Assembly (NCBI GenBank): GCA_030141605.1
Contig: JAQGDQ010000001.1
Span: forward strand, 2,638,501-2,702,500
Origin: Tubiluchus corallicola
Taxonomy: Eukaryota; Priapulida; Priapulimorpha; Priapulimorphida; Tubiluchidae
Direction: 5' to 3'
Length of the DNA stretch: 64,000 nt
The notes under the pieces are model-generated. The model saw only the letters and a list, made by a program, of their open reading frames with translations. It was not told the origin of the DNA and made no database searches. Below, piece by piece: positions 3,661-52,759 of the stretch; positions within the stretch are counted from its first letter, which is position 1, and each line of letters opens with the position of its first letter. The translations under genes were made by a program, and so were the position numbers.

Positions 3661-3689
3661 CAGCGTGCGTACACTTGAGTGTATGTCAT

Positions 3690-3883
3690 TTCGCCAGCGC
3701 ACAATTCGCCAGTTTATCTTTTCGCCAGTCTGTGTCTTCGTCAGTCTCTCTTTTCGCCAGTCTATCTTTTCGCCTGTGTATATTTTCGCCAGTCTGTGTT
3801 TTCGTCAGTCTGTCTTTTCGCCAGTCTATCTTTTCGCCTGTGTATCTTTTCGCCAGTGTATATTTTCGCCAGTGTATCGTTAC
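3690..3883 (+). repeat. 16-bp tandem array, left arm of copy 1
   Basis: About 12 units of TTTTCGCCAGTCTATC with substitutions (GTGTAT, GTCTGT). Because 16 is not divisible by three, the three overlapping ORFs read the same array in three frames with a 16-residue protein period, so none is a gene. The inner edge runs into sequence shared with the right arm and with copy 2. Confidence 0.85.
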
Positions 3884-4639
3884 TAATACTGAAGACTTAA
3901 CTGACCTAGAACTAACTATTGACCTATGTCGGTACCATACTTATAATATTATAGCAGGGTTTCATTTAAATGCTCTCTGAACCAAGGCTATAAGTTTTAC
4001 AGAGGCATGCCATATATCATTGGATTCGCAATGAAACGTAGAATCTGCACTAAAGTTGCTAGTCGCGTTTCGTTTGACCAGAAAACGGCAATAAATAGGA
4101 TGTCCGGTCGAAAATTCAACATTCAGGATCTGCTGTCATTTTCAGTCTGCGATGTTTAGTTCCCAAAATACGCGTATTTTTAGACTAACTCAAAAACTAG
4201 ACAGTGCTACTTGACCGGCCAAATTTTCTGTGCTTATAACTAGTGTAGAGTGCCATTCTAGCTTGAAATTTCGATACGTGAAACTCTGACCCAATTGAGT
4301 TATAACCCGATAACCCGGATAGGATTAGATGTTTTCCCCCAGTTTTAACAGCGGGAAAATGAGTCTGGGAAATTGATTGTGGAAGAGGTACTGAACGTTG
4401 GGGGAGGCCATAGTTTACGAAGTGGGTAAAGAATCGATTGGACTATCAGTAGGACAAAGATAGTTAAGGACCGCATCGTTTGGCATTAATGACTCCTCAA
4501 AGTCATCCCGTTTTCCTATACCTTAAATATGGGGAACAGTATTTTTCTTCCCCTATACCTTAACTGTGAGAGGAAAGGGTTTGGAAAAAAGGTCTTCACA
4601 CAATAACTCTAAGTAGTTTTTGCGACACACTGTAGGATG

Positions 4640-5160
4640 GATATCCGATGGGATTATTGCCAGTGGTCGCCATCTTGGTAACTGGCGCTTCAGTCTTGAG
4701 TAACGTAAGGGTAAAGTTTTGGTGAGTTACCGCAAAAACTAAGGCCGCGAAGTCCTTCTGGCATCTCAGCCTAGTAGAACAAGAACCGTCTTATTCAAAA
4801 TGGCTTCCTTCAAGAGTTATGGTTTCCCAAAGTTAAAAATATTGATTTTTTTCTCTCATACGCCTTAGGTATGGTACCAACATGGGTCTAGAAGAAAGGC
4901 CGCAACGCGGAAACCGTTTACAGGTGGCAGCTGTGTAGCGCATGGTTGATAGAGAATTGATTGAACTATCGTCACATGGCACCATGCTGCCCAAGTGGTG
5001 CTTTTGTCCCGAGTAACATAAAATTTAGAAAAATTAGGACCTCTAGATCCTTATAGCTTCTCGGCCTGATTAGCCAAGGATGTCTCTATCTCGAGTATCA
5101 ATCACGTGATTCCGGTAGGCCTTCTTCAAGAAAAATGGCTTCCAAAATTAGGCATTTTGA
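4640..5160 (+). repeat. imperfect direct repeat in loop of copy 1
   Basis: About 4670-4820 resembles about 4985-5150: GCGCTTCAGTCTTGAGTAAC against GTGCTTTTGTCCCGAGTAAC, then a CTTCTGGCATCTCAGCCT-like stretch, then TTCAAAATGGCTTCC against AAGAAAAATGGCTTCC. This suggests an internal duplication inside the foldback loop. There is no coding potential. Confidence 0.45.
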
Positions 5161-5947
5161 CACCTTCGTCTCATATATTAAAGGAAACATCTCGTTTATG
5201 CAATTAGCCAAATATCGGTTCATTTCGGATAAACAAAAAAGAGGAAAAAATATTAGTACAGCGCGTATTATTCTGTGTTTCATTGGGAATCCAATAACAT
5301 ATTCCACGCCTCTGTAGGAGATATCTTCCGTTCACAGAGCTTTTAAAGGAAACCACGTCAGTTTTTCCCTATTGTTAAAATACGTTGTACAGACAATTGC
5401 AAGTTTGGACGCTTTGTAAAATGGTAGCAGTTCAGGGTTCAACAAAAACTAAGCCAAGGCACAGCACTTTATTTGTTTTTTTCCTTTGCTAAGCTGATAC
5501 TTCTTGTAGAAGTAATCAAAATGAACGTATTTTGACGATTTTCGGATCATACTACAGGCGGGTCAAAGGGTCATCGGAAATTACAAGCTAGGATGTTCCT
5601 CTACCTAGCTACAAGCACACCAAATTTGGTCAAGTAGCATTGTCTAGTTTTACAGTTATTCCAAAAAGATACGTATCTCCAAAACTAAACATCGCAGAAC
5701 GAAAATAACAGCAGATCCTGATTGCCAAAATTTCGACTGGATCTGCTTTTTATTGCAATTTTGTGGCTAAACAAAATACGACTCGCGACTTTGACGCAGT
5801 GCATCAGATTCTACGTTTCATTTTAAATCCAGTGATATATGGCATGCGTCTGTAGGACTTGCATCTTCCGTTCACAAAGGTCGATACCTAATGGTCAAAG
5901 GTGACTTCTAGTGAGTTAAGTCTTCATTGTTAGTCACGATAACATTG

Positions 5948-6549
5948 GCGAAAAGATAGACTGGCAAAAAGGTAGACTGACGAAAAAGTACACTGGCTAA
6001 AAGGTATACTGGCGAAAAAGTAGACTAGCGAAAAGCTGGACTGGGGAAAAAGTAGACTGGCAAAAAGGTAGACTAGCGAAAAAGTAGACTGGCGAAAAGT
6101 AGACTGGCAAAAAAGTAGTCTAGCGGAAAGATAGACTGGCGAAAAAGTAGACTGGCGAAAATAGACTGGCGAAAAGATAGACTGGCGAAAAGATACATTG
6201 GCAAAAAGATACACTGGCGAAAAGATAGACTGGCGAAAGGAGATTGGCGAAAAAGTAGACTAGCGAAAAGCTAGACTGGCGAAAAAGTAGACTGGTAAAA
6301 AGGTAGACTGTCGAAAAAGAGACTGGCAAAAAGGTAGACTGTCGAAAAAGAGATTGGCGAAAAGGTAGACTGTCGAAAAAGAGATTGGCGAAAAGGTAGA
6401 CTGGCGAAAAAGTAGACTGGCAAAAAAGTAGTCTAGCGGAAAAATAAACTGGCGAAAATAGACTGGCGAAAAAATAGACTGGCGAAAAGATACATTGGCA
6501 AAAAGATACACTGGCGAAAAGATAGACTGGCGAAAAGATAATTGGCGAA
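5948..6549 (-). repeat. 16-bp tandem array, right arm of copy 1
   Basis: About 38 units of the 16-bp word, here reading GATAGACTGGCGAAAA, with one-base length variants. The outer end is ATTGGCGAAGTGGG. Three minus-strand ORFs (SPVYFFASL/FRQS repeats) are frame shadows of the array. Confidence 0.85.
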
Positions 6550-8280
6550 GTGGGTTAATACCCATGCACTTTACTCTTCAAAATTAATGTCTTGAAAAAC
6601 ATCTGATCCGCCTAGCACATTTGGATATGAGTTATTCATAAAAGTTCTATAAAAAAGCACTTTGTAGTCTACACTTCCAAAATTGTTGATGTAGTTCCTC
6701 TTTAATTGGCATCTATATAGGGTTCTCCATTGCTTTCATTTTTACAATGATTCAAATTTACTCCAATTTAACAGCCTTTGGATGACTATTTGAAACGTAG
6801 TACCAGTGATTTATGGCAATATTAAATCAATAGAGCCATTCTTTTGTTGTCGAGATTGCTTTTTATGTTGTTATCCCAACAGTTGACTGACTGAATAATG
6901 GACCAGTTGGATGACTAACCCATCGACTTAGTAACTCATTGACCGCCTATCTGACCAACTGGTTGTTCGACTAACAGGCTCGCCTGAGATTGATTGACTC
7001 ACTGAGATCCGGCCAGCTATTAGTTGACCGTCTGACTAACTGACTGACTGACAGATCACCAACCTATCCGACCTACCGATTGGGCAACTGCCTGGCCCAG
7101 ATTAGCAAGGCATTTACTTCCGAGTCAGACTGTGAATTTTTATACCAACAATTATACATCCAAGGTGAATATAAATAAATTTATTTTGTCTGGACATTTG
7201 ATTCACAGCAACACATTTGCTAAAATCGCCCTTAACCATTTATTATAATTATGACTATTGAGAATCCTTCAGCTGCTTATGGACAAAATAATTTATAATA
7301 TTATGATACACCATTATCATAATTAATGTTATAATGGTGTCCGAGTGCCGTTAAAGATGTAGCATTATGATATATAAATTTATACAAACCATTAGGTTGA
7401 TTTGCATATGCTTGATAACTTTTCAAATTTTTCGCGAAGAAAACGTAAACAGTACGTTTTGAATGACTATCAGCTGACGTTCATTTTCTCTCATCAGTAC
7501 ACTGCAGCATGCAGAGTGTTGGTTATTGAGTATGCGTACAATATTTAAGCACTCTTAATAAAAAAACATATTGATTTTTTTCACTTCTTGGCTTACAGGC
7601 TAACAGGAAATGTAAGCCATGCAGTTCAAATCTGTATAGCATGATGAGAACTCGCTGTTTATATATATCACGAACCAAACTAACAATAATACAGGTGAAA
7701 AACTATGTCTGCATATGCTGTCTAGTGGTCAAAAAGTTGGCACTACGCTGAGGATTAGAATCCGCTATAATATCCTAAAAAGTGCATTGCCACGATACCC
7801 GATTTCCCTTTCCTGTCTTTTTTTGTCTTACAACACTTTGCAATAAACTAATGTATTGACTATCAGTAACTCGTAAAGAATTAATATCTTTAAAAGGGTG
7901 AACAATATTGTTCGGTAAATAGTAGATTTATTAATAAAAATCGGCGCTAATTAGTATTTTCTAGTGTTATTACTTTCAGTAAGCTGGGATTGTATATAGG
8001 CCAGAAATGGCACATAGACCACACTGAATCAATCATACTGAAGTGATAATTAGTCACGAGCACCGTGGACACTGGTCACACGTGAGCGTAATAAACATAA
8101 TCTACAGATTTTAACATGAGTAAACTATATTGGACCAAGAATAATCAATTGGTAAACACAGCCATGTTGTCATCAGAAATCATTCAGTTTTGTTATTACA
8201 AAATTTAGATTTGCTTCTTCCATAACCATTTCGGATATTAAGTATTCATTTGTAAAGTTGTAATTTATTGTAAAGATGTT
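6550..8280. other. intergenic; degenerate GACT repeat
   Basis: About 6885-7095 is a heavily mutated tetranucleotide tract dominated by GACT/GACC words (CTGACTAACTGACTGACTGA is the purest part). The remainder is AT-rich without a gene. A 10-bp inverted repeat (ACACCATTAT/ATAATGGTGT) lies near 7309-7342. Confidence 0.5.
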
Positions 8281-11200: not shown

Positions 11201-12630
11201 GCTGCATGCAATGCCAAAAGAGGCAGCAAAATAAAGAATATGAAAATGGACTCAGAATGGATTCGCCAAATACAAATTCTGTTAATACCTGGAAGGATTA
11301 CGAAGGGGAAAATGTTAATCCTCAAGTCTGAAAAGTACTACAGAAATCTGTTCAATTAAATCTGTTGACAATCGAAAGCACATTGTAATGCTTGTTGACT
11401 TAACTTTGACTGTCCTTTCCACGATTAGGTTAACAAGACCAACAGGAAAGACTGTCAAAAAGCGAGACTTCAAATGTTTATTAACCTAAATTGATGAAAA
11501 ATAATCTCACGACCAAATCGTACTTCCTAGCTGTTTTGCGTAAGTATATACATAAATCTAAGTTTCTTTTCAAATTTTTCTCCAGTGTCGGCAAGATCGG
11601 GCATGAATCAAAAGCAATTTTTGAGAATTTGTTGTAAAATTTTAACTGGGTCGATATAATGACTAGTTACCTATGATTTTTTCAGTATTTTCCCGCCTGT
11701 TTAATAGGTCGTCGAAACCTTAGCTCTAAACTGGAACATTGCTTATCAACAGATTTTATTATATTTAGCTCTCTGCTATTTTTATGAGGATAAAAACGCT
11801 TTTGCAGCCAGACTAATTTAATATTTCAACACATTAAAATGCTATATAAATTTCAGTGTACAGCTAAGGAACTAAAGAACTAGGACTAGGAAAGCTAACG
11901 GTGTGCACTATTAAAAGATACAGGCAATAAAAAATGAAAAAACTTTAAAGCAATATGACATTCACTAAAAACCAAAAATAAGTCATTTTAATAAGTCAGT
12001 CTTAAAAAGTCTGTTATATATTTCATATCTGTTTGGATTATTCCACAAAGACCCTTCATGAACATTACATAATAATTAGAGATAGTTGTGCATATAGTTT
12101 AACTTGAAATGTTGATGTAGAATTTCATGTAATTTGATTCAAAGGATTCTCAGCAGTTTAAATTCACCTGTTTTCAAACATTTCGGGTTCGTTGTTTTCC
12201 AAAGAAATAAAAACTTTAAAGTGCATCCGACACATCTGAGTTTACTATGACATTGAGAAATAGGCTTATCACATACTCTTTTGTGTATATTCATTCGTCA
12301 TAACTCTTTAAACCACTGGAACTTAATTTCTTATTTTTAATGAAAATTGTGGTGGAGTATCCAATAAACCTCTTTAGCATGTTATGTTAATTGTGTATTA
12401 TATGTCTGCTATCATTATTACTAAACAATAATTATTAACATTTGATAAATATTACGTCACACATGCATAGCATTTTTACTGCTTTCAATGAAAGAATTAA
12501 ACGTTAAAATTGATCAAACATTTAAACAAGCACGCCAAATACATAAAGTCGTTTCACATCATACGTAGCAATGATAAGCTCGATTTGTCACTTTGTGGTG
12601 GTGTTCTTCTGTGCCGATTGTATATCAATT
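8281..12630. other. no gene seen; short ORFs only
   Basis: ORFs of 60-105 aa at 8281-8629, 9305-9863 and 10231-10640 show no recognisable domain, and the last lies in an imperfect CAG/AAC-rich triplet tract (about 10495-10700). A perfect 11-bp stem TAACAACCATT/AATGGTTGTTA with a 6-nt loop lies at 9895-9922. Nothing else is supportable. Confidence 0.4.
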
Positions 12631-12850
12631 CACCAGTTATCTTTTCGCAAGTGTACTTTTTCGCCAGTCTATTTTTTCGCCAGTCTACCTTTTCGCCAGT
12701 GTACTTTTCCGCTAGTCTACCGTTTTGCCAGTCTGCTTTTTACTAGTCTACTTTTTCGCTAGTCTACTTTTTCGTCTGTCTACTTTTTCGCCAGTCTACT
12801 TTTTGCCAGTCTACCTTTTCGCTTCGCCAGTCTATCTTTTCGTCAATGTA
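12630..12850 (+). repeat. 16-bp tandem array, left arm of copy 2
   Basis: About 13 units of TTTTCGCCAGTCTACT. Predicted ORFs at 12510-12955 are repeat shadows. The inner edge continues into GTAATCACCACTAACAATGA, the inverse of the right-arm inner edge near 13700. Confidence 0.85.
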
Positions 12851-13714
12851 ATCACCACTAACAATGAAGACTCAACTTACCTATATATGTATATATATTT
12901 GAAACAAATCACTCGTGTGCTTATAGCTAGAGTAGGGAGCCACTTTTGCTTATAATTTCTTATCGTAACCCTTTGACCCACCTGAGTTATGACCCGAAAA
13001 TCGTCAAAATACGTCTATTTTTGAGAAGCAATTACTCCTACATCAAGCGCCATCTATACAAACTGAAAAAAACATGTAAACTATTATGCCTTGGCTGTCG
13101 GAACCGGCTCAGTTTTATCGAACGCTGAACCGCTGCCATTTTACTGGACCTCAAACATGCCATTGTCAGTAATATGCTTAATACACTTAACGTATACGAC
13201 AATTGCAAAAATTGCATGGTTTCCTTTAAACGCTCTACGAACAGAACCCATAAGTCGTACAGGAGCGTGCGATGCACCATTGGATTCGCAAAGAAATGCG
13301 AAATGAGACATACTATGTCGCAATTGCAAGTCAAATTTCTTTTAACCACAAAATGGCAATAAGAAAGAAGTTAGATACCGAGAATGTGAAGAGAAAACTT
13401 TTGAGTTATTCCGACAAGTTGCGTATCTCCGAAACTATACATCCAGAACGAAAACAACAGCAGATTCTGAGTGTCAAATTTTCGACCGAACATCCTATTT
13501 ATTGCCATGTTCTGGCTACACGTAACTCGACGCGCGACTGTGATATACTACATCAGATTTAACGTTTTATTTCGAATCCAATGATATATGGTGCGCCTCT
13601 GTAGGACTTATATCTTCCATCACAAAGCGTTTAAATAAAACCATGTCGATACCTGATATGTCAATGGTGACTTCTATATACAGGTAAGTTAAGTCTTCAT
13701 TGTTAGTCACGATT

Positions 13715-15350
13715 ACACTGGCGAAAAGATAGACTGGCGAAAAAGTAGACTGACGAAATGTTGATTGACGAAAAGGTAGACTGGCGAAGAAGAAGACTGA
13801 CGAAAAAGTAGACTGGCGAAAAGGTAGACTGGCGAAGAAGTAGACTGGCAAAACAGTAGACTGGCGAAAAGGTAGACTGGCAAAAAATAGACTGGCGAAA
13901 AGGTAGACTGCCGAAAAGGTAGACTGCCGAAAAAGTAGACTGGTGAAACAGTAGACTAGCGAAAAGGTGGACTGGCGAAAAAGTGGAAACAGTAGACTGG
14001 CAAAAAATAGACTGGCAAAAAGGTAGACTGGTGAAACAGTAGACTGGGGAAAAGGTAGACTGGCGAAAAAGTGGACTGGCGAAACAGTAGACTGGGGAAA
14101 AGGTAGACTGGCGAAAAAGTGGACTGGCGAAACAGTAGACTGGGGAAAAGGTAGACTGGCGAAGAAGTAGACTGGCGAAAAGGAAGACTGGCAAAAAATA
14201 GACTGGCGAAAAGGTAGACTGCCGAAAAGGTAGACTGCCGAAAAAGTAGACTGGTGAAACAGTAGACTAGCGAAAAGGTGGACTGGTGAAACAGTAGACT
14301 GGCAAAAAATAGACTGGCAAAAAGGTAGACTGGTGAAACAGTAGACTGGGGAAAAGGTAGACTGGCGAAAAAGTGGACTGGCGAAACAGTAGACTGGGGA
14401 AAAGGTAGACTGGCGAAAACGTGGACTGGCGAAACAGTAGACTGGGGAAAAGGTAGACTGGCGAAGAAGTAGACTGGCGAAAAGGTAGACAGGCGAAAAG
14501 GTAGACTGGCGAAGAAGTAGACTAGCAAAACAGTAGACTGGCGAAAAGGTAGACTGGCAAAAAATAGACTGGCGAAAAGGTAGACTGGCAAAAAATAGAC
14601 TGGCAAAAAGGTAGACTGCCGAAAAAGTAGACTGGTGAAACAGTAGACTGGGGAAAAGGTAGACTGGCGAAAAAGTGGACTGGCGAAACAGTAGACTGGG
14701 GAAAAGGTAGACTGGCGAAGAAGTAGACTGGCGAAAAGGAAGACTGCCAAAGAAGTAGACAGGCGAAAAGGTAGACTGGCGAAGAAGTAGACTAGCAAAA
14801 CAGTAGACTGGCGAAAAGGTAGACTGGCAAAAAATAGACTGGCAAAAAGGTAGACTGCCGAAAAAGTAGACTGGTGAAACAGTAGACTGAGGAAAGGGTA
14901 GACTGGCGAAAAAGTAGACCAGTGAAACTGTAGACTAGCGAAAAGATGGACTGGCGAAAAAGTGGACTGGCGAAAAGGTAGACTGTCTAAAATGTAGACT
15001 GGGAGAAAAGTAGACTGGCGAAAAGGTAGACAGTCGAAAAAGTAGACTGGCGAAAGGATAGACTGGCGAAAAGGTAGACTGGCAAAGAAGTAGACTGGCA
15101 AAACAATAGACTGGCAAAAAATAGACTGGCGAAAAGGTAGACTAACGAAAAAGTAGACTGGTGAAACAGTAGACAGGGGAAAAGGTAGATTGGCGAAACA
15201 GTAGACTGGGGAAAGGTAGACTGGCTAAAAAGTAGACTGGTGAAACAGTAGACTAGCGAAAAGGTGGACTGGCGAAAAAGTGGACTGGCGAAAAGGTAGA
15301 CAGTCGAAAAAATAGACAGGCGAAAAGATAGACTGGCGAAAAGGTAACTG
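13715..15350 (-). repeat. 16-bp tandem array with higher-order structure, right arm of copy 2
   Basis: About 100 units, mainly TAGACTGGCGAAAAAG with variants GGTAGACTGGGGAAAA, CAGTAGACTGGTGAAA and AAATAGACTGGCAAAA. The variants recur in the same order: about 13877-14125 is repeated at about 14189-14430, and about 14486-14590 at about 14757-14850. Multi-unit blocks have therefore been copied, as in satellite DNA. The 381-aa and other long minus-strand ORFs here are artefacts of a stop-poor array. Confidence 0.85.
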
Positions 15351-15359
15351 GCGAAGTGG

Positions 15360-17320
15360 GAGAAGCCCACTAGCTTCTCCCTCGCTGTAATAATTTTGAT
15401 TTCACTAATCATAATTACTCATTTTCTTTTCGCGTACGTTTGCAATTGATAGAAAACCATATTTTGACATAATTTAGTTTTTACATTTTCATTTCAACAC
15501 CTACTAAGCCTTCGGAGTAGATGTAGCTGATTCTCTAGCTTTATTCTCACTGATTCTCTAGCTTCTGATTACGTTTTTTTAAATTTATATAGGATATTGT
15601 TGTGGTAAATCTTGCTAGTAAATTAAATAGCTTGATCAATGCTGCATGGTGCTTTTTGAATATATACAGCAGTTAATCTGACTGATAATTATTTATTAAC
15701 AATAATGGGTACATTCTCAGAATACCGCGTTAATTACTGTTTTGTTAATTCCAGTTTTATAGGCGAAACTGCTTGGCAATCCTTTGAAGGTTAAAGTTAA
15801 AACAAATAGTTATAAAGAAGAATTCGTGGCTATGAAAACATGTGACAGAAATCTAAGGAGTTGCATGAAAAGTGAACTTTGCATTAAAAGTATAGGAAAA
15901 ACACACATTTTTCCTTGAATGTGGAAAACTTGTCAGTATGATAGCAAAGTACTACAGTATTTACAGACATGTATGCACTAATGTGTGACCATAAGTAACG
16001 TCGAGCAGCATACAAAGTGAAACCATTTGCAGTAGTATGGAAATGCAGCAACAATTATTTCGCACATTAGTCAAACGACCGATTGTATAAAATTTTTGTA
16101 TTTTGCTATTGGAAAATGACTGATATTCAAAATGCTTACTCATATTTACGCAGGATTAAAAACGACATAAATTTAGAACAACAAAATTAATATTGACTGC
16201 GGTATGCAATGAATCAAAGACATAATTTTGAACCAGCCACGTTAACCCTAACCTTAACCAGGTTACATTCACGACTGGCTCATAAGTAAAGGTAAAAAGG
16301 TTGGTTTGTGTTAAATTTTAATCAAGTTTGATTTTTTCTTGTCTGAATTTTGTTTGAAAAAGTTAATTATTTAAATCACTTCTATAACAATCTGCAGTCT
16401 CAAAAATCTCGAGATATTTAGCGTTAATAACCAATTAAGAAACAATTATATTACGCGGTTAGATTGATCAACTTCATAATATTGATATTATAAACGTTGA
16501 AATTAAAAAGCGAAAGGGTTAACCATCAAATCATTTTTATCAAAAGGCAGACCTCAATTTGTTGACACAACTCTTGACGATGTTACGATGTTCAATATTG
16601 CTTGGAACAAATTGAGCGCCGGTCTTCTCCGGAAATGAGTGAAGAACAAAACAGGAAGTTTTAAATCTTGTTACGCCACCGGCTTCCTGTTTGGGTAAAA
16701 TTACTCTACGGGCTTCTTTCAGAATTGAAGAAAATTCCGCCATGGTTCATGTGGAAATTCTACTTTGTGATATTTCATCCGTAAAGTTTTCGTGATCAAA
16801 TTGTTTTTTAAACACTCTCTGGACAACAATTGGATTATTTTTGCGTTTTTTGTCTGTGAGAAATTTCTGTGGCTGAGTTGAGTGGTTAATGGGGTAATCC
16901 TGGGGATGAAGTGCGTAAGGAATGAATAATAAAATGACGCCTCTTACCGCGCGTCTGTAAACGATACGTGTGAAAAATTGCCTGTGTAGAAAAATACGTT
17001 TATTGAATTTCAATCACAACGTTAAGGTATATGAGTCGTTGATAGAGTAACTGCTTGAGATAAGCGTCGACCATGGATTTTGTGTCAGCTCTCTAATTGT
17101 ACTTCTCGCTCTTGAACAATAGCAAGATGTATTGCAGTTGTCTGGAAAGAATGCGTTTGTGTAATTAATGTATATCTGTAAATAGCTGTGGAAAAAACCT
17201 TTATTATTTATGCCTTTTCACGACAGAATATAGTGCTATCTTCTAAAATAAGGAAATGCTTTAAATTAATTTTAGGTAAAGATTGGTAATATTCGCAATA
17301 ACTAATGAATAAATGGAATT
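15360..17320. other. no gene seen
   Basis: AT-rich sequence. Minus-strand ORFs at 16540-16743 (67 aa) and 16747-17013 (88 aa) start with Met but show no domain, and no splice structure links them. A real exon cannot be excluded. Confidence 0.35.
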
Positions 17321-21638: not shown

Positions 21639-21990
21639 TTGAGATTCCTTTCAATAAAGATTCCCAAATTTCGACAGCAAAAATAAGCCTAAAAATGTCT
21701 CATTATATATATTTTTATATATATATATATATATGTATATTCGCGTTTCATGTCAGAAACAAAGCTTATATATAATATAGTATATAAATAAAATATGGTA
21801 TTTGACATAAACCAAGAAAATCTGTGTACGCAGTAGAGAGAAAACAAAACTTATATAATTTAATTTGAATATATTTAAGCATTTTCATAATAGCATGTAC
21901 GTACTTCAAATTCTTTTGAGACGTTGTTGAGCAAAATCTACATCATTTACTTGATCAACCAGTCATCGATTATTTTGTACTTTCAGAAAA
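20260..21990. other. intergenic upstream of the GPCR; AT microsatellites
   Basis: No gene is seen. AT dinucleotide tracts lie at 21591-21636 and about 21713-21734. A polypyrimidine tract ending in TTTCAG at 21981-21986 looks like a splice acceptor and suggests that upstream 5' UTR exon(s) of the GPCR lie somewhere in or before this stretch. Confidence 0.5.
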
Positions 21991-21995
21991 TTAGG

Positions 21996-23087
21996 ATGGA
22001 TGCCGGGGATTACGAAGATCACGTTGTAAAGCTGGTGGGCTTAATGATTGAAGACTGTAATTCTAGTTTTTCTTACAACAACAGTTCCCAAGTGATGGCA
22101 TTCCATACCATGTTACAACAGCAAGACACCATATTTCCAGTCACTTGTGCCATTATTATTATTGTCGGTTTGGTTGGAAACGGGCTGACTATTTTAAGCG
22201 TGTTATGCAACCCGGACATGAGGTGTGGCGCTAATATTTTGATAGCTAACATATCGGTCGCAGACATCTTGTTTTTGATATTCTGCTGCATGCCAGAAGC
22301 AGTACGATATCAAATGTGGTACTGGCCGTTTGGTAAGGGAATGTGTAAAGTTATGTACTTTTTTGCATCTGTGACATTGTACATGCGTATCTACACGCTG
22401 CTGTTGTTGAGTGTCGAACGGTTGCTGTCTCTGATGCATCCGGACATCAACCGTCGAGCGATGTACCTGATCATTGAGGGTGTCTTGTGGTTCGTTCTTT
22501 GCCTTAATAGCTTATTTGGCCCAATCGTGTCTGTTGTCACGCAGCTGTGCTACCCTTGGGAACGCGAACTGTATGAATGGTGTGTTCTAATGGGAGACAC
22601 TTTCAACGAATTTTGGTGGGGTATGTTCACCTTCTCGTTCCTTCTGCCATTGACTGGTGTAACTGTTATATTCGTCGTAATTATTTACCGTTATTGTTGT
22701 GGATATTCCCTGGGACGTACAATGGGAGAAGTACCCGATGCAAAATCAACAACGGTGACTGTCTTGCTAATGAGTGTTTTTTGTGTTGTTTGCTGGATGC
22801 CATTGTATTCCATTATGTTATCTCAGACTGGAGGAGCCGATGACATTCGCAATCACATAGAAATCTTCATTCACATGGGCCAAAGAGCTCCCATTGCTTA
22901 CATAATAGGCTATTGCAACATGTGCATATACCCGCTGTTGTACGTCACTTGTATGCCAGCATTCAGATGCGAATATACTCACTTGTTTTTGCTGAAGTGC
23001 CGCCACTCTGTGGCCAGGCGAACAAGAAGGGAGCAGTCCGATATGCTTGAAACAAGTAGTCTTAATCAGGCCACCATAGAATTGTGA
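21996..23087 (+). CDS. class A (rhodopsin-like) peptide-type GPCR
   Basis: 363-aa seven-transmembrane receptor with its coding region in one exon. The start at 21996 (M-D-A-G-D-Y) is preferred over an in-frame ATG at 21924 because a TTTCAG acceptor lies 9 bases before it and the extra residues look like translated intron. The N-terminus has N-x-S sites at N22, N28 and N29. Landmarks: G61-N62 in TM1, A89-D90 in TM2, W-P-F-G in the first extracellular loop, C117 (disulphide partner probably C185 or C196), E141-R142-L143 for DRY, W165 in TM4, P218 in TM5, C266-W267-x-P269 in TM6, and Y312-P313-x-x-Y316 for NPxxY. The tail ends in a basic R-R-T-R-R stretch. It is closest in style to allatostatin-A/galanin-type neuropeptide receptors. 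The ligand is unknown, and the unusual ERL and YPxxY motifs may alter G-protein coupling. Confidence 0.88.
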   Translation: MDAGDYEDHVVKLVGLMIEDCNSSFSYNNSSQVMAFHTMLQQQDTIFPVTCAIIIIVGLVGNGLTILSVLCNPDMRCGANILIANISVADILFLIFCCMPEAVRYQMWYWPFGKGMCKVMYFFASVTLYMRIYTLLLLSVERLLSLMHPDINRRAMYLIIEGVLWFVLCLNSLFGPIVSVVTQLCYPWERELYEWCVLMGDTFNEFWWGMFTFSFLLPLTGVTVIFVVIIYRYCCGYSLGRTMGEVPDAKSTTVTVLLMSVFCVVCWMPLYSIMLSQTGGADDIRNHIEIFIHMGQRAPIAYIIGYCNMCIYPLLYVTCMPAFRCEYTHLFLLKCRHSVARRTRREQSDMLETSSLNQATIEL

Positions 23088-31492: not shown

Positions 31493-31789
31493 GGAATCGT
31501 GGGGCCGAGCTAGACGATTAGCTGCAAGAAGTGGCGTCCCTTTCTTTGCTCCGAAGAATGATGTCAGTGGCTTATGATCAGTCACCAGTATGAAATGACG
31601 CCCGTAGAGGTACTGGTAGAATTTCCGCAAGCCAAAGATGATGGCTAGGGCTTCCTTATGTATTTGGCTGTAGTTCCTTTCTGCAGCCGTGAGAGTCTTG
31701 GACACATTGGCAATTGGGCGCTTGCTTCTGTCTGGATAGCGATGAAACAGGACAATTCCAATTCTAACATTGGACAAGTCACAAGCCAA
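31493..31789 (-). pseudogene. Gypsy RNase H region, 3'-truncated
   Basis: Contains the motif order A-N-V-S-K-T-L-T-A-A-E-R-N-Y-S-Q and E-A-L-A-I-I, then V-T-D-H-K-P-L, typical of the Ty3/Gypsy RNase H domain. The reading frame differs from the adjacent RT segment, which implies a frameshift near 31790. It ends just after A-A-N-R-L-A-R, where element homology stops. Confidence 0.85.
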
Positions 31790-31794
31790 TCCCT

Positions 31795-32866
31795 TGGCTT
31801 GTCTGGGTCAAAATGCACCAGGACTTGATCTGGGGATAGCACATTTTTCAACAGTTCAAATGCTGTTTGCTCGTCATCTCCCCACTTCCAGGGGATTGTC
31901 TTCTTGGTCAAGTGGTAAAGAGGCTCTGCCATAGAAGCCACATTTGGGATGAACTTCCCATAAAACTGAACCGAGCCCAAGAAAGACTTCAAGCTTGAGA
32001 CGTCTGTAGGAGCTGGCATCTTCATGAGTGCCTCGACCTTGGATCCTTTTGAGACTCCTTCGTCCGATAGGGTGTGTCCAAGATATTCCACGCTTGGTTG
32101 TGCAAACACTGAGTCCTTTGTCATTCAGACGAGTGAGCAAGCATCTCAGGTTGCTCAGGTGGTCTTTGGTGTCTTGCCCACTGACTAGCATATCGTCTTG
32201 GAAGACAGCAACTCCAAACAGATCACTGGTCCGGTTCTCCATGATCTCCTGAAAGTAACCAGGCACTGACTTGATTCCGAAAGGGAGTCGTTGCTGCAGG
32301 AGTACCCTACAGTGGGCGCTGAGAGCTAGACTGCGTTGACTCTCGGGTGCCAGCTTAATCTGGTTGTAGGCATCAGCAAGGTTGATCTTCGTGTAGCCGT
32401 ATCCGCCTCCCATCTTCTGCATCAGTTCCTCTGAGAGTAGCATCGGATAGTTAATGCCGACTGAGTAGTCACCACAGATCTGCAACTTGGGCTTCTGTGT
32501 GCCCAGAGTGTAAGCTTTACGAATCGGTACCACAGGCGTTCCGTATTTGTTGAACTGGACTGGCTTTCAGACACCCGTGGCGATGCCTTCTTCATAACTT
32601 TTGGCCACGTCATCACCAAGAGCAAATGGAACCAGTCGTGCCTTGTGAAAAACCGGCTTCGCGTCAGACTTGAACTTCACTTCCAGCTCGAAATCCTTAA
32701 GACACCCCAATTCTTCTGTGAGGAGATCTGGGAACTCGTCACACAGGTTGTGGCAACCTCGTTGCAGGGAAGCATAAGACGTGTCAGAGGTCTTCGGACG
32801 TGACGTTTTTACACCCTCGCTCTTGTCTTGACTCTCTATGCTTCTTAGTCCTAGAGCATTGTCCAC
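31795..32866 (-). pseudogene. Gypsy reverse transcriptase, frameshifted
   Basis: Spread over at least three overlapping minus-strand reading frames (32567-32866, 31874-32533, 31645-32124). Recognisable RT blocks are I-R-K-A-Y.., C-G-D-Y, K-I-N-L-A-D-A-Y, L-P-F-G-I-K-S, F-Q-D-D-M-L-V-S-G and Y-L-G-H-T-L-S. The active-site box has F where Y is usual before x-D-D. The frame changes make it a pseudogene. Confidence 0.9.
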
Positions 32867-32869
32867 AGA

Positions 32870-33300
32870 AATTCCCAGAATCTGGATAGCATTTCAGGTT
32901 CAGGTCAGTGATCTTGGTGACGATGTAGGGAATTGAGCTTTGTTTACCAGTCTTTGGATCCTTGGCCTGGCCCATGAAAGTTCCCAGCACTGGCAGGTCG
33001 AGCTTGCTGGCAGACTCGTAGCGATGTCTGATGTCATCCAGCTTTGGCTTTCCTAGTAGTTGTTTCCAGACCGGCACTTAAACGAAATTTCCCCTGGTTG
33101 CAGTGTCAAGTTCCTTCTTGAACTGTTGGTCTTGGATGTTGACTTCACCATCCACACTAGGAGAGGCTTCAGGAACTTCACCGTGGATTGCCTTGACAGG
33201 CTCAGCCTTTGTGAGTCTCCTCGCGGACTTCCCAGATTTCTGGTCCCATTGCTATTGTTGGTTCTTCATGCAAACAGCCTCCAAATGTCCTTTCTTGTCA
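32870..33300 (-). pseudogene. Gypsy protease region with stops
   Basis: The frame continues from gag through in-frame TAG and TAA codons. D-T-A (complement of 33099-33107) sits where the aspartic protease D-T-G is expected, followed by V-P-V-W-K-Q-L-L-G-K-P-K. After about 32870 the reading moves to another frame to reach the RT. Confidence 0.6.
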
Positions 33301-34120
33301 AAGAAATGGCACTTGGCATCTTTGTAGGGACAGTCTGTCACTTTGTGGGCCCTTCCACAATGGTAGCACTTTGTATCCGTGTCTGTGGAATTTGACTGCT
33401 GATGGTTGCTTCATTGACCCTTGTTCTGGTTCAGCTTGACTTTGTTGACGGGTCTGGTCTTGGAACCGTAGACAGTTTCCTTAGCAACCTTTGCTGCATC
33501 TTCAGTCTCGATAACGACTTGGACAGCACGGGCAAAAGTCACATCTTCGTCCTTGATCTTGAAAATAGCCTTCAAGACACCTTCGTTGTTGACAGAGCAT
33601 ATGAATCTCTGCCTCAGAGCTTCATCTTGTGGGTCTTGGATTGAAGAAAAGTCACAGGTAGCAGTGTCTTGGTGTATGTGGGCTGCTAACTCCTGAAGAG
33701 TTTCGCCTGGCTTCCATTGCATGTCACTCCAGAACTTGAAATGTTCTCGCACAATGAAGTGTTTTGGGTCAAACTGTTCCTTCGTGAAGTCGACACACGT
33801 CGCCAGATTCTCCAGTTGTTTGTAGATGGCAGCAGTCTGATTAGTTAGGAAAACTTGAGCGTTGCGTTGGTCAGGCACTGTGTTGGCAGCCATGAAGGTA
33901 CAGAATCTTGACCAGTAGTCAGGCCACAGTTCAGAAGTTGGACCAAAAGCAGCAAATGGTGGAATAGCAGCTGCTGTAAGTGCAGATGCAGGTGGGCACT
34001 TGAATTGGCATCATCTTCAGGAGGGCAAGCCTGAAGCAGCCTCCCCATAGCGTCCATATCTTCTTTGTGTTGCTGTGCCTGCCGGGAGGTGTTTGATAAG
34101 TTTGCCCATCTGCTCTGCAT
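33300..34120 (-). pseudogene. Gypsy gag with zinc-knuckle region
   Basis: The capsid part (33411-33893) has W-x-D-M-Q-W-K-P-G-E-T-L-Q-E-L and L-R-Q-R-F-I-C-S-V-N-N-E, as in gag of Gypsy elements. An upstream N-terminal piece at 33845-34120 is in a different frame. Past a TGA stop the same frame continues into two zinc-knuckle motifs (33300-33375). The first is C-x2-C-x3-H-x4-C. The second has F in place of its second cysteine. Confidence 0.8.
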
Positions 34121-47640: not shown

Positions 47641-50600
47641 CATGCGTGTGTGTGTGGTGTGTGTGAATAAATTAAAACTAATATTCAGTATTAGTGTTTA
47701 ATAACGAATGACTATTTGTTTTAGTTTGTCTCATTAACATTTCTGTTTTAGTAAAACCCCATCAGAGTTATAGTCAAATGCGTAAAAGTCAAAGTGGCCC
47801 AGCTAAAAAATATGTAGTGACAGGATTAAGTAGTAAAAGAAAAAAGTATTTGCATGAGCCATGAGTATAAGTGATGAATATAGATCTCTAAACTTTGAAT
47901 TTGAATTCTGAATTTGAAATGCCAGTTAGGGATTGCATTGTGCTTAGCTACTTTTTCAAAGCAACACCATTTGGGCTTTTCCACTAACTTTCATTTTGCT
48001 CTTTAAGTGCACATCAGTGCACAGAATTGTAAGTTTTCCATAGCATTATTAATTAACAAGAATATCTTTTTTGTTATTCAGAATATTGACAAGTACCCAT
48101 CACTAAGCAGTTCTGTCGCTAGTGTAGAAGAATCTTATGAACTGGAAGAACAGTATGAAATACCAGTGAAAGATTTGACTGTTAGCCAACTTCAGCAGTT
48201 AAAAGTATTGTAAATTTTAACATTTATTTAAAAAAAACTGTATGTGTTTAAAGGATTTTTAAAAATAGCATTTGTACCTTTATGTCTCACGAAGTAATTG
48301 CTAATCTGTACCTTTATGTCTCATGGAGTAATTTAGCAAATGTTAGTAATTTGCACAAATATTAGTTTCAAATGACTCCACATATTAAAAAAATGGCTTA
48401 TTTAATTACGATTTTCTAATGGACTAAATCATGTTTATTTTATATAGCTATGTCACAGCTATGACAAACGGGAGTTGCATACTGACTTGATGGATGGCAA
48501 GTATAACCTTATTGTTCGAAATGTCTTACAATGTTTTCACAACATTGTTTAACACTCAACTTTCTGTATACCAATGATTATTACCATCGTATAATATGAT
48601 ATATTATATAATGTATAATATCATGACACTGTAAGCACAGCTTTATTAATGGACAAATCTACTTATTGATTACATTTGGTATTTGGTAACTATAGAAGGT
48701 GTAAGAAAAAAGCAAGAATAGTTGACACATCCATTTTCAAATCTTAGGGTGCTTAAACAATAGTGTGCAATATGTATTATATTTATTTTAATTGAACAAT
48801 TTGTAGAATTGATTACTCTCTTTTTTTCATTAGAGCTATACAACCCTTTTAAATTCTGATGTATGTACTACATTTTTTAAAGCTTTAAAGAGTTAGTGAT
48901 ACATAATGGTCATTTGAACTACTATCTAATCTACCCTATGAATCATTTTGTGAAAGTGAGTGAGTGACCTGTGCGAATGACAGCTTAGCATAATATTGAT
49001 GAAATTCACCTTCCTTAATTTTTGAGAGATGTGCTTCCTCGTTAATTTTTTCCTTATGAGAGTTGCCCAATCAGAGGCCCTCACTTTTTACACTTGACCC
49101 TTCTCTACTCTTTTTATACTACTTTTCTTGGAGAACATCCATTGGGAAAGCCAGGTAGTCTAAACGCTCAAAACTCAGTGGAATGTGTGACATGCAAGAG
49201 TGACTTTGGATCCCTGAAAATCTAAACAGGGTTTTGGTGACTAATAACTAGTGACGTCTATGTTAATGTTTATAATGTTGCAGGTGGTTCACCCAATGGT
49301 AACTCTCTAGCAGTCTCTCCTTTTCCCAATTTTTCTTATGATGTATTGTTTGGTAAATTATATTTGTATTTCAAGTTTCTATTCAACAACCAAGTTAACT
49401 TTAGAATGTAACTTTCTGCCACACGATCCTTGTCTGTTTTTTATATCATTATAATCATCAAAAACCTATGAACAAGGTCTTTAAACCCAATCTTCAGATA
49501 TTTGATTCCAGCCATGATTTGTCTTCTTACATGGCCAAATATAGAAAAGGCAGAGCTTTCTAAGCTTGTCAAACTAAGTAAACCCTCATTAATTTAGTAA
49601 ATTCTAAATGAATTTGCCTTTTCACCCAGTAAAAATGTAGCAGCTGTCTTTGAGTATTTGATGGCTTGTTTAAAAATAAATGATAGTAAAAGTAGAGTTT
49701 TGAAGTATATGGGCAATTTTGTGCAAATTTTCATTGCAGTATTCATTATTTCTACTTTGACGATGCATAAACAAAATACTTCATTACATTATTGGTCATT
49801 TGTGTGTGAATTTAATCTACATCAGATAATGTAATATGCAAAATTCCGCATATTACGTTCTTTTTCTTTTTTCAGTGTTGTGTTATACTGACAAATTTCA
49901 AAATATTTCTGTTTTGTGAGAAAACACTTTTGAAGGGCCTTGTTACAGTATCGTTACTAATACTTTTCTTGACTTTACATCAGTGCAATTTGCATTTACC
50001 TATTTTTAGATTTAGACAGTGGTGTTTCCTTATCTTCTGGAACAGCTTCTGAAAGTGGTAGCTCTCTTAGCAGTGATAATTTAGATGATCATAGAGTTTT
50101 TTCTACATTAGAGGATGTATTGCATAGAGTTAATATACATGTTGGTTTTACCATAGAAGTGAAGTATCCGATGGAGTTAATAGTAAGTCAGATTTGCAAT
50201 GCTTTTACAAGTTAATTGTTGGTTCTTTGCATAATGACAAAGAACATTTTATGCTATACTTAGATCTCATTGAAGCTTTGACAAAACTTTGAATAAGGTG
50301 ATTTTTCTTACTGTTCTATATGTAATACATGTTTTAGTAACTCAAATACTTGTTTTTATATTTATGTACAATACAATTATTTTGCCAACACGAATACTGG
50401 TTAGTGATTTGGCAATAATCATTTCTAGAATAAGACCTCTTTTTTCTAGAATGGAGAGCATGAGCTAGATGTACCATATTTCGAAAAGAACTTATTTGTG
50501 GACAGAATACTGCAAACAGTGCTTGAACATGGAGGAAAGCGTCGTATTGTCTTCTTGACTTTTGAACCTGATATTTCCATTATGTAAGTCCCTTCCTGGC

Positions 50601-51901
50601 TGAAAATTGCTGTAGCATCATATAAGTGCTGTCAGCCAAATTTGATCCTGCCATCTCATTTGAGTGCCACACTCAGTAATTTAACATTGAGTAAAATTGC
50701 CCATTGAAATGCTACATAAAATTTGTCAATGACTAACAGCAGTAGAATTGGTTTTGACAGTACACTTTACTACTGTGTAAACTTGTAATGCATTGCAATA
50801 GCATTAAATATATTTATTGTTAGTAAATTTGCGTTACAACTGCTTTTTTCTGAAGGCATTCTTCTAACTTTTTTGTTTCCATTTTACAGGTTGCAAAACA
50901 AGCAGAACAAATATCCAGTACTGTTTTTAACAATGAGAAAGAATGATACTTACCTTTCGTATGCTGAACCTCGAGCTAGTGACTTTACATTAGCTGTCAA
51001 CTTTGCTGTTGCTGAAAAGCTTTTGGTAAGTGATGGTTGCACAGGGCTGCACATTTATTTCAAGGTTTAGCTTTTGCTTAATTTATTTCATAAGATAATA
51101 GTGCATAAAAAAATAACAGATAATGATATTGAAGCATCTAAGGACTTCTTCCTTTAAACAAATTTTTTTCAAAAAGTAGGTGTTACCGATAGTGCATAGT
51201 AGAAGTTAACAAATTATTGTTAAATGCTTGACAAGTCATTTCACTGGTTTTATTTTGCAAATACTTGACAACATGCGATTATCAAATGAGCATCCGTTTA
51301 TAATCTAGGGAGTGAGCTTTTATGCAGGATGCTACAAAGAAGACACAGAACTGATACAACATGCTCTTAGCAAAAATCTCATATTATTTGGTTGGGGCTT
51401 GAAAGATAACAAGGACATTTCATCCCTCAAGAAGCTTGGTTTGGATGGTGTCATTATAGACAGGTTTGTAGTTTCTTGTACTGCATTATCAGTATTTGCT
51501 AATACAATATTTCGTTTCTGACACTGCTACTTTCTACTATATGTACATGCTATTCAAAAACTGAATTTAGTTGGGTACTTGGTAGTCTTTGGTAGGGCAT
51601 ATAAAGTCAAATTAAATTTTTCTCTAAAGTTTTGTGCTTTATTTCTTCTCTGTATGCACATATTTGCAACTACAATCGAAGGAAACTATATAACTTTAGG
51701 ATTGAAGAACATAAAACTGGAGTAGATCATCAAGCTAACGTCTTCCTGACTGAATATTTTGAAAAGATGCGCAAACAACTACGTGAAGCAGGTCACCTAG
51801 TGAAAACGACATCGCGTCATCGAGAACGTTCTAGTGATGGACAGTGGTATGTGGAAGGCTATCGTAGCGACGATGATAGTGAAGTGGATGATTGTAATTA
51901 A
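39122..51901 (+). CDS. GPCPD1: glycerophosphocholine phosphodiesterase GPCPD1 (GDE5)
   Basis: Sixteen coding exons, all phase-consistent, join into 707 codons plus stop. Human GPCPD1 is 672 aa. The enzyme hydrolyses glycerophosphocholine to choline and glycerol-3-phosphate in the cytosol and is metal-dependent. Domains: CBM20 starch-binding fold at about residues 7-100 (V-C-V-V-G-N-L..L-G-Q-W and V-E-Y-R-Y); a central C2-like region at about 110-300; GDPD domain at about 318-640. Catalytic residues are H323-R324, E340-N341, E358, D360 and H373-D374, with E491/K493 later. The C-terminus is hydrophilic and acidic. An in-frame TAG at 39092 precedes the ATG, which has A at -3. Exons: 39122-39264, 42872-43062, 43493-43644, 44299-44400, 44610-44723, 44854-45016, 45140-45275, 46655-46709, 47024-47119, 48082-48204, 48448-48496, 50010-50182, 50450-50583, 50890-51025, 51309-51463, 51700-51901. 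Intron 11 needs a GC donor. No disabling change was seen. Confidence 0.93.
39930..40480 (+). pseudogene. LINE reverse transcriptase C-terminal relic in GPCPD1 intron 1
   Basis: The decayed translation reads [17 protein letters not shown], then [10 protein letters not shown] and, after frame breaks, [12 protein letters not shown]. This is the order seen in RTE/jockey-type ORF2 (F-x-Y-L-G, K-x-x-V-Y-x-A, G-H-V-x-R-M). Several stops and frameshifts interrupt it, so it is an old insertion. Confidence 0.6.
40790..42060 (+). repeat. dispersed TAACATTACTAACC words
   Basis: The word TAAC(A/G)TTACTAACC or a near variant occurs about eight times, for example near 40796, 40970, 40988, 41013, 41670, 41685, 41873 and 42048. 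They are not tandem. They surround the Y-W-K-W-P relic inside intron 1. Confidence 0.6.
41160..41480 (+). pseudogene. decayed ORF with Y-W-K-W-P motif in GPCPD1 intron 1
   Basis: Reads [10 protein letters not shown], an acidic stretch, then [11 protein letters not shown], and after stops V-G-K-Y-W-K-W-P with D-x-I-F-Y. This resembles a small domain found in many multicopy, probably transposon-associated proteins of aquatic animals. I cannot name the family with certainty. At least three stops are present. Confidence 0.4.
42872..43062 (+). CDS. GPCPD1: GPCPD1 exon 2
   Basis: Acceptor ATATTGTCAG, donor ATG|GTAAAT. Completes the CBM20 domain (W-N-G-E-I-L-L-P and V-E-Y-R-Y, then [10 protein letters not shown]), aligning with the human Y-R-Y-F and H-K-W-E-T-H segments. 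Confidence 0.9.
43063..43492 (+). other. GPCPD1 intron 2
   Basis: AT-rich GT-AG intron with nothing else recognised in it. Confidence 0.7.
43493..43644 (+). CDS. GPCPD1: GPCPD1 exon 3
   Basis: Acceptor TTTACCTTTAG, donor GAT|GTATGT. Encodes [15 protein letters not shown] and Q-Y-R-I-R-V-T-I, matching the human D-S-G-W-L..E-I-R-L-R-L-H region. Confidence 0.9.
44187..44206. repeat. AT microsatellite in GPCPD1 intron 3
   Basis: About ten AT repeats inside the third intron. Confidence 0.85.
44299..44400 (+). CDS. GPCPD1: GPCPD1 exon 4
   Basis: Acceptor TTTTTTCAG, donor TGT|GTACGT. Serves as a linker rich in S, N and D with little conservation. Phase 0 at both ends supports it. Confidence 0.75.
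44610..44723 (+). CDS. GPCPD1: GPCPD1 exon 5
   Basis: Acceptor TTTATTCAG, donor TTG|GTAAGC. Phase 0 at both ends. Encodes a cysteine-containing stretch corresponding to the moderately conserved middle of the family. Confidence 0.8.
44854..45016 (+). CDS. GPCPD1: GPCPD1 exon 6
   Basis: Acceptor GTATTTGCAG, donor AAAG|GTAATG. Contains [13 protein letters not shown] and L-P-I, matching human L-P-G-H-V-G-T-A..L-P-I. Confidence 0.9.
45140..45275 (+). CDS. GPCPD1: GPCPD1 exon 7
   Basis: Acceptor GCATTTAG, donor GGAAA|GTAAGA. Holds the start of the GDPD domain: [21 protein letters not shown], with catalytic H323-R324. Confidence 0.95.
45276..46654 (+). other. GPCPD1 intron 7
   Basis: A 1.4-kb intron. 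Short ORFs at 45539-45769 and 46433-46615 are not coding. No other feature is seen. Confidence 0.6.
46655..46709 (+). CDS. GPCPD1: GPCPD1 exon 8
   Basis: A 55-bp exon; acceptor CTATTTCAG, donor CAT|GTAAGT. Encodes [14 protein letters not shown] with the conserved E-N-T metal-site motif. Confidence 0.95.
47024..47119 (+). CDS. GPCPD1: GPCPD1 exon 9
   Basis: Acceptor AACATTTCAG, donor AAG|GTTTGC. Encodes [10 protein letters not shown] and V-V-Y-H-D, supplying E358, D360 and catalytic H373. Confidence 0.95.
47549..47666. repeat. (TG)n microsatellite in GPCPD1 intron 9
   Basis: About 118 bp of TG repeat, interrupted near both ends by GCG/CATG. Confidence 0.95.
48082..48204 (+). CDS. GPCPD1: GPCPD1 exon 10
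   Basis: Acceptor TTGTTATTCAG, donor AAA|GTATTG. Encodes an acidic serine-containing insert followed by [17 protein letters not shown], matching human F-E-I-P-V-K-E-L-T. Confidence 0.92.
48448..48496 (+). CDS. GPCPD1: GPCPD1 exon 11 (GC donor)
   Basis: Acceptor TTTTATATAG. The frame into exon 12 is kept only if the exon ends at 48496, giving donor ATG|GCAAGT. The nearby GT at 48501 would shift the frame. Encodes [11 protein letters not shown]. Skipping the exon would also shift the frame (49 bp). Confidence 0.75.
48497..50009 (+). other. GPCPD1 intron 11 (GC-AG)
   Basis: Starts GCAAGT and ends TTTTTAG. 1.5 kb of AT-rich sequence with no other feature recognised. Confidence 0.7.
50010..50182 (+). 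CDS. GPCPD1: GPCPD1 exon 12
   Basis: Acceptor CTATTTTTAG, donor ATA|GTAAGT. A serine-rich acidic loop (about residues 444-468) precedes T-L-E-D-V-L and I-E-V-K-Y-P, matching human N-I-E-I-K-W. Confidence 0.88.
50450..50583 (+). CDS. GPCPD1: GPCPD1 exon 13
   Basis: Acceptor TTTTTTCTAG, donor AT|GTAAGT. Encodes [15 protein letters not shown], close to human L-K-T-V-L-E-N-S-G-K-R-R-I-V-F. Confidence 0.95.
50890..51025 (+). CDS. GPCPD1: GPCPD1 exon 14
   Basis: Acceptor CCATTTTACAG, donor TTG|GTAAGT. Encodes [11 protein letters not shown], nearly identical to the human block. Confidence 0.95.
51309..51463 (+). CDS. GPCPD1: GPCPD1 exon 15
   Basis: Acceptor TATAATCTAG, donor AG|GTTTGT. Encodes L-I-L-F-G-W-G and [13 protein letters not shown], the C-terminal strands and helix of the GDPD barrel. 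Confidence 0.95.
51700..51901 (+). CDS. GPCPD1: GPCPD1 exon 16 (stop)
   Basis: Acceptor TAACTTTAG. Encodes a hydrophilic tail with basic then acidic runs ([13 protein letters not shown]) and ends in TAA. The tail is poorly conserved in the family. Confidence 0.9.
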
Positions 51902-52429
51902 TTTCTGTAAGTTCACTAGACAAGTGAAGGGTCAGACGCCAGCTGGCTAGAAAGAAGTATCTTCGTTACAGTAGTTGCCATAAAGATAAACAAAAATTGT
52001 AAAGTGTGATAAAAGGCCATTGTTTTTATTTACTCACTTTCCGTTTGTCTTTTCGTCCATGCTTCCATACGGTTTTGCTGATGCTTTAACATATGTAAGC
52101 TCACTTCACTAACTTACTTGGCAGAAGCACCTACATTGGGAGAATGACAGCAGTGGTCATTCAGCAAGTACCTTGGTGTGGAGAATGAAAACAGTTCAGT
52201 GACCGTAGACCTTGAATCAAAATTGAGCTTTCTCTGTTAGTCTTCAATTTTTTAAAGCCAGGATGAACCTTTTTGAAATCTGGTAAAGTGGGAGATGCAT
52301 TTAGTATGTTAGAACAAATAGGTATGGCTTGAAAAGATATGAGAAAACATAAACTACAATGACCTTGCACTTATAAGTTTGAACATATATCTGAACAACA
52401 TTTCAATTTATTGCTCATGTTTATGTTGT

Positions 52430-52752
52430 AATAAAGTCTAGTATAACTAAGCTATTATAATTATAGTATTACATAATAATACCATTATGTAGTAATATTA
52501 ATAAAACGTTTCAGAAGTTTTTAAACTACATTTTATACAAGAAGTAGAATTTAGTGTATATACTATAACTAACTTCATGTTGACCTGAGGATTGCTCAAG
52601 TATGCAGTTTGTGTGTGTGTGTGTGTGTGTGCATGCGTGTGCGTGTGGCATGTGTGCGTGTGACTTATTACCTGCACTAACTGCACGGCAAATTGTTATC
52701 ATGTTATTATTTTACATTAATGTATGTTATATATGTGACAAAAATGAATAAA
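52430..52752 (+). promoter_or_regulatory. GPCPD1: candidate GPCPD1 polyadenylation signals
   Basis: AATAAA occurs at 52430-52435 and 52747-52752, about 530 and 850 bp after the stop codon. Either could end the 3' UTR. A GT-rich microsatellite (about 52608-52665) lies between them. Confidence 0.45.
52608..52665. repeat. (GT)n microsatellite, interrupted
   Basis: GT repeat with GC/CATG interruptions over about 58 bp, in the GPCPD1 3' flank. Confidence 0.9.
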
Positions 52753-52759
52753 AACTAGC

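Follow-up and report, generated by a model that had tools for sequence, protein, structure and literature searches.

In FB of Drosophila and TU of sea urchins, the outer part of each arm is an array of short units, and TU also has an inner, non-repetitive inverted domain and 8-bp target-site duplications. Elements of the P superfamily, including Galileo, leave 7- to 8-bp duplications, and that of Galileo is 7 bp. The two ends of Tm1, a Mutator/Foldback family of root-knot nematodes, have unlike terminal motifs that lie outside the inverted repeat, and its arms consist of ~14-bp tandem units in variable number (PMC3169594). Tm1 duplications are mostly 9 bp (45 of 53 have 8 to 10 bp), many copies are non-coding and MITE-like, one element codes for a Phantom-type MULE, and one aberrant copy has an identical motif at both ends (PMC3169594). 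In Aedes aegypti, 10 of 12 long-arm MULE families have sub-terminal tandem repeats of 9 to 15 bp (PMC5225508). MULEs of this species leave 8- to 9-bp duplications, their derivatives vary in unit number and interior, and one of its elements, Muta1, is termed a type 2 foldback (PMC5225508). MULE target-site duplications are given as 8 to 11 bp in PMC6446971.

Here we describe a foldback family found in the window, by which we mean the whole 64-kb stretch of DNA that was analysed (C1874:2638501-2702500, from an assembly of 343.5 Mb in 2,344 contigs). Element 1, at window positions 3677-6562, is a complete foldback transposon of 2,886 bp with no recognisable gene. It is flanked by imperfect 9-bp target-site duplications, the left one (CGTACACTT, 3668-3676) matching the right one (CATGCACTT, 6563-6571) at 7 of 9 bases. 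Terminal motif A opens the element on the plus strand (3677-3697, GAGTGTATGTCATTTCGCCAG, 2 differences from the family motif), and terminal motif B closes it on the minus strand (6542-6562, GGTATTAACCCACTTCGCCAA, 3 mismatches to the search pattern). Tandem Repeats Finder placed an A-side array of a 16-bp unit at 3705-3878 on the minus strand (unit TTCGCCAGTCTATCTT, 10.9 copies) and a B-side array at 5946-6549 on the plus strand (unit TGGCGAAAAGATAGAC, 38.4 copies). The two units are reverse complements of each other, and the preliminary description was right to see opposite-orientation arrays of one 16-bp word. Non-repetitive inner arms lie at 3882-4272 (plus strand) and 5577-5945 (minus strand, in inverted alignment to the left arm), on either side of a loop at 4273-5576 (plus strand) that likewise has no recognisable gene.

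A blastn comparison of this stretch with the window recovered the inverted arms, with 3705-4272 aligning in inverted orientation to 6111-5577 (72% over 577 columns, E 3e-86). The best inverted block between the arrays pairs 3992-4272 with 5860-5577 at 77.5%. Inverted symmetry past the arrays is present, as had been claimed, but it runs for ~390 bp (to 4272 and back to 5577) and not 450 bp. Similarly, the proposed bounds of 3690-6549 take in both arrays but miss the outer terminal motifs. The central proposal, a foldback-like transposon whose arms are 16-bp arrays, holds: inverted arms with short-unit tandem repeats of variable length surround a loop, and other copies of this build lie at 12616-15368 and in other parts of the genome. 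To that proposal the analysis adds the unlike ends A and B, the length of the duplication, the second copy in the window, and Tm1 and Muta1 as close precedents.

The copy at 12616-15368 (plus strand; element 2) is a second, diverged member of the family, 6 kb downstream of element 1. It consists of motif A (12616-12636, 4 differences), an A-side array (12641-12847), an interior (12848-13716), a B-side array of over 1.6 kb (13717-15358), and a degenerate motif B (about 15348-15368, 4 differences). The B end is altered, and no target-site duplication was visible (2 of 9 bases match). The right sides of elements 1 and 2, which are mostly array, are only 77% identical over 970 columns. Therefore, element 2 is not a recent local copy.

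We searched the genome for the two terminal motifs, which are unlike each other and lie outside the arrays (A, GATTGTATGTCGTTTCGCCAG; B, GGTAATCMCCCACTTCGCCAGTTAT; the family ends start with GATTGTATG and GGTAATC). All counts from genome searches are lower bounds. Motif A, allowing up to 3 mismatches, had at least 98 matches (4 for the reversed control), and motif B had at least 62 (0 for the reversed control), so the boundaries are recurrent. Copies of the family have one A end and one B end. Among 28 inward-facing end pairs within 4 kb, 26 were A+B, two were A+A, and none were B+B. When redundancy was collapsed by counting an insertion found in 13 contigs once and a doubled B end at C1209 once, the figures became 13 of 15 A+B and 2 of 15 A+A. 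There were no outward-facing pairs within 4 kb and three within 12 kb. No inward partner was present within 4 kb for 37 of 50 forward A ends and 20 of 35 forward B ends, which means that many copies are truncated or have one diverged end. (Element 2, with 4 differences at its ends, is for that reason missing from the listed pairs.) One of the A+A pairs, at C1744, may be a misread array unit. The other (C347:9980-11030) has motif A at both ends and inverted copies of its own flank on both sides, as if an inverted duplication had begun within the element. Rearrangements of this kind are attributed to foldback arms.

Next to the constant ends are target-site duplications. We compared the outermost bases beside A and B in 18 complete copies at lengths 4 to 12. 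At length 9, 11 of the 18 copies matched at 7 or more of 9 bases, whereas none of 306 mispaired controls did, and mean identity was 0.70, compared with 0.28 in mispaired flanks. At the remaining lengths (4 to 8, 10 to 12), mean identity was 0.22 to 0.32, compared with 0.25 to 0.27 for mispaired flanks. None of 20,000 permutations reached the observed total. Perfect duplications flank the copies at C1060 (TGGTCGGAG), C2 (ATTATGTAT), C1986 (TTTTGAAAT), and C1209 (AACAAGCAC). The remaining 7 of 18 copies, element 2 included, matched at 6 or fewer of 9 bases. These 18 were scored out of 22 rows; the second C1209 B end, the A+A pairs at C347 and C1744, and the copy at C744, whose B end was guessed, were left out. 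The end positions were fixed after candidate 9-mers had already been seen at element 1, C475, and C1477; without these three, 8 of 15 copies still matched at 7 or more bases. The host sequence around the C475 copy is a 20-bp minisatellite. Taking out the element together with one 9-mer brings, by eye, the next minisatellite unit into register, with only 7 bases of it following, but the printed unit list is identical with and without the removal, and this case adds little. Insertions of the family create a 9-bp target-site duplication, and its constant ends and duplications at unrelated sites mark a discrete mobile unit.

The interior of the element also recurs. In a genome search with the loop of element 1, a check that the preliminary description had proposed, scoring 40 of 99 candidates gave at least 67 matching pieces, counting the loop itself. 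The loop core (4330-5560) is 68 to 86% identical to other places in the genome. A 321-bp sub-terminal stretch of element 2 had at least 41 matches (40 of 143 candidates scored), and at four of these places (C2019, C1836, C744, and C1883) there were inverted pairs with 1.0 to 1.8 kb between them. An exact 22-base stretch of array occurred at least 34 times, and its reversed control was absent. Copies range from 78 bp, an end-only remnant, to about 3.7 kb (the C1060 copy, for example, is 716 bp). Comparison of 16 complete copies showed interior sequence common to the longer ones; those at C195, C2, C541, and C710 have fewer than 60 non-array bases each. C1311 is the exception, with at most 167 of 1,089 unmasked bases matching any single other copy. 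The family comprises dozens of old, diverged copies, which are probably inactive. An exact 31-base double unit was absent from IMG/VR contigs, and searching the literature for array pieces as letter strings returned only papers that are unrelated by title.

The exceptional copy at C1311 (64242-65686) is complete and has a duplication matching at 8 of 9 bases around an interior mostly unlike the family. Part of that interior weakly resembles reverse transcriptase and is captured or nested sequence. Separately, contig C1696 has two 3,022-bp stretches (49955-52976 and 60852-63873) that are 99.97% identical, inverted, and ~11 kb apart, with a family array in each. They represent either a recent palindrome or an assembly artefact.

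Aligning 578 units of exact 16-base spacing gave the consensus TTTTCGCCAGTCTACC. Positions 2 to 4 and 9 to 11 are best kept (91 to 96%), the CpG bases are at 86%, and positions 15 and 16 are most variable, although the units were chosen by positions 1 to 14 with up to 4 changes, which inflates the apparent variability of the last two. Arrays span 22 bp to over 1.6 kb per side, each side has between 1 and about 98 unit hits, and higher-order periods of 63 to 78 bp are present. In many copies, motifs A and B both run into the same first unit, TTCGCCAGTTATCTTTTCGCCAG. Therefore, the arrays look like an amplified sub-terminal end. Contig C2289 has a homogeneous 13-bp array (83924-84546, GCAAGATACACTG) without terminal motifs, and its unit resembles the 16-bp unit minus three bases.

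The preliminary description reported no transposase in element 1, and we agree. With array read-through frames excluded, the longest stop-to-stop frame between the arrays is 86 amino acids, and frames of 86, 80, and 76 amino acids matched no Pfam family at E 0.1. It had also proposed looking for full-length relatives with a transposase; in this assembly, no transposase was found to be enclosed by A and B ends when 3 mismatches or fewer were allowed in the motifs. No transposase was seen by eye in the ORF lists of the window loop and of 19 element stretches (the latter with array-like frames filtered out), and nine of ten frames taken from these lists were without a Pfam match at E 0.1. The C1311 frame gave its reverse-transcriptase match at E 5e-4, below the curated Pfam cut-off. 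A C1209 frame looked like reverse transcriptase by eye, yet had no Pfam match.

We also looked at candidate transposase genes elsewhere. At least seven MULE-domain, at least three ZSWIM-type, and at least seven Merlin matches were present, and none was enclosed by listed A and B ends. The MULE matches comprise one that is ZSWIM-like (C390), one that looks bacterial (C1597), four from one family, and one degenerate piece (C2289), and none of them qualified as a partner. The C2289 piece lies 5.5 kb outside a B end, with no second end over the 20 kb read. The family with four matches (C1741/C2151) has other terminal repeats at the three of its four MULE-domain places that were read (L093, L095, and L096). 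It is ~4.9 kb long with a 414-amino-acid MULE-domain ORF, and its copies are ~96% identical. Its left end has two 12-mers, CTTTTCTCCTGT and CTTTTCGCCTGT, that resemble the array unit, 17 bp apart and in the A-side orientation (L093, positions 1113-1141; also in L095). No such pair occurred in 300 first-order random sequences or at five other loci, but the pair was seen first and tested after. It might be a trace of kinship between this MULE family and the foldback family, and we regard it as a weak lead. At C1597 (144500-151000), long genes of bacterial appearance, RecJ-like and RsgA-like by eye, lie beside two near-identical transposase ORFs. In this eukaryotic assembly, that contig belongs to either a symbiont or a contaminant.

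The family resembles Tm1 in its unlike end motifs, variable short-unit arms, 9-bp duplications, non-coding copies, and occasional same-motif ends. However, the Tm1 motifs are CGGTTAA and CCTACCC (PMC3169594), compared with GATTGTATG and GGTAATC here. Therefore, this is a separate family and not a copy of Tm1. Further differences are a 16-bp unit of other sequence, an inner inverted arm of a few hundred base pairs in several copies, arrays of up to over 1.6 kb, and the lack of any coding copy among those found. In Muta1, a palindromic terminal motif is part of the inverted repeat, and coding copies exist (PMC5225508), whereas the two outer motifs here are unlike and coding copies were not found. 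Tetris and Galileo of Drosophila are similar in having long arms with internal tandem repeats (PMC4079207 and PMC3573991), but Tetris, which is apparently non-autonomous, has units of ~220 bp rather than 16 bp (PMC4079207). The layout of element 1, with an outer array and an inner non-repetitive arm, equals that of TU, and the unit sequence differs. The family is foldback by structure and, by analogy, would work like a MULE foldback.

Our main reading, to which we assign a probability of about 75%, is that this is a new non-autonomous foldback family that was probably moved by a MULE transposase. Membership among MULEs is likely because of the 9-bp duplication, which falls within the 8- to 11-bp range of that group, and the build. 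In this scheme, element 1 would be a foldback-type DNA transposon, non-autonomous and moved by cut and paste. The 9-bp duplication and a build matching that of Tm1 and Muta1 make it probable that a MULE transposase, acting in trans, made the cuts at ends A and B. Slippage or unequal exchange may have expanded the sub-terminal unit CTTTTCGCCAGTCTA into the arrays, as suggested by the range of 1 to about 98 units per side and the higher-order periods. The long arms of the P-type foldback Galileo are reported to have multiple transposase binding sites (PMC3688188), and by analogy the array units here are probably repeated binding sites for the transposase. A bolder and rather improbable idea is that the family is moved by an undescribed transposase, for which the two unlike ends serve as recognition sites and the 16-bp units as a docking ladder that can be extended. 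If so, a copy's success in competing for this trans-acting enzyme would depend on the length of its arrays.

The rival that deserves most attention keeps the foldback structure and changes the enzyme to a transposase of another superfamily that leaves 8- to 9-bp duplications (Merlin, P-type, or one without a name). Foldback arms did arise in unrelated superfamilies, Galileo being P-type (PMC3169594), the genome has at least seven matches to Merlin-type transposase genes, and no MULE linked to A or B ends was found. However, six of the seven Merlin matches are on contigs without an A or B match, and the seventh, at C1677, is ~137 kb from an array on the same contig. A P-type enzyme is contradicted by lengths 7 and 8, which gave no duplication signal here (mean identities of 0.31 and 0.28, compared with 0.26 in mispaired controls). 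Moreover, unlike terminal motifs, short arrays, and 9 bp together are what published MULE foldbacks have. We therefore consider another superfamily unlikely.

Two further explanations would do without such a transposon. Plain satellite or minisatellite DNA could be spread by recombination, with the inverted pair as chance neighbours, and it would fit both the very variable array length (22 bp to over 1,600 bp per side) and the similar-looking 13-bp array without ends at C2289. The preliminary description had specified beforehand that arrays with no consistent loop or boundary would point this way. Instead, loop, boundaries, and 9-bp duplications at unrelated sites all recur, and A pairs with B, which leaves the satellite explanation very improbable. 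A Helitron-type element with internal tandem arrays, such as those reported from oysters (PMC7492417), would account for unlike ends and internal arrays. But the family has both 9-bp duplications and inverted arms, and we find a Helitron scarcely credible and the least probable of these explanations. To our knowledge, Helitrons have neither target-site duplications nor inverted arms. The finding adds a MULE-like foldback family with dozens of copies, from a 78-bp remnant to 3.7 kb, in one genome that is animal-like, judging by its ZSWIM-like gene and a rhodopsin-type receptor ORF in the window. This size range allows us to ask if arm arrays grow and shrink with transposition, and if unit number affects mobility.

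During the motif searches, we noticed that some copies are shared between contigs. A B+A pair of fixed spacing, accompanied by another B end at a distance of 167,632 bp, is in 13 contigs (C2, C14, C457, C628, C1781, C1850, C2066, C2159, C2185, C2200, C2228, C2254, and C2271). Another copy is common to six other contigs (C2107, C2074, C2072, C1974, C1831, and C1752). Judging by a comparison of hit positions alone, this reflects either redundancy of the assembly or the multiplication of very large segments.

A search of the assembly for COX1 gave no match. In the 64-kb window, an Rfam search found no family at the gathering score. Fragments on the minus strand at 31645-34010 look by eye like a reverse transcriptase of the LTR type, and they have a weak RNase H match that does not reach the cut-off. 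An ORF of 397 amino acids at 21894-23084 has a rhodopsin-type seven-transmembrane receptor domain (E 1.8e-26).
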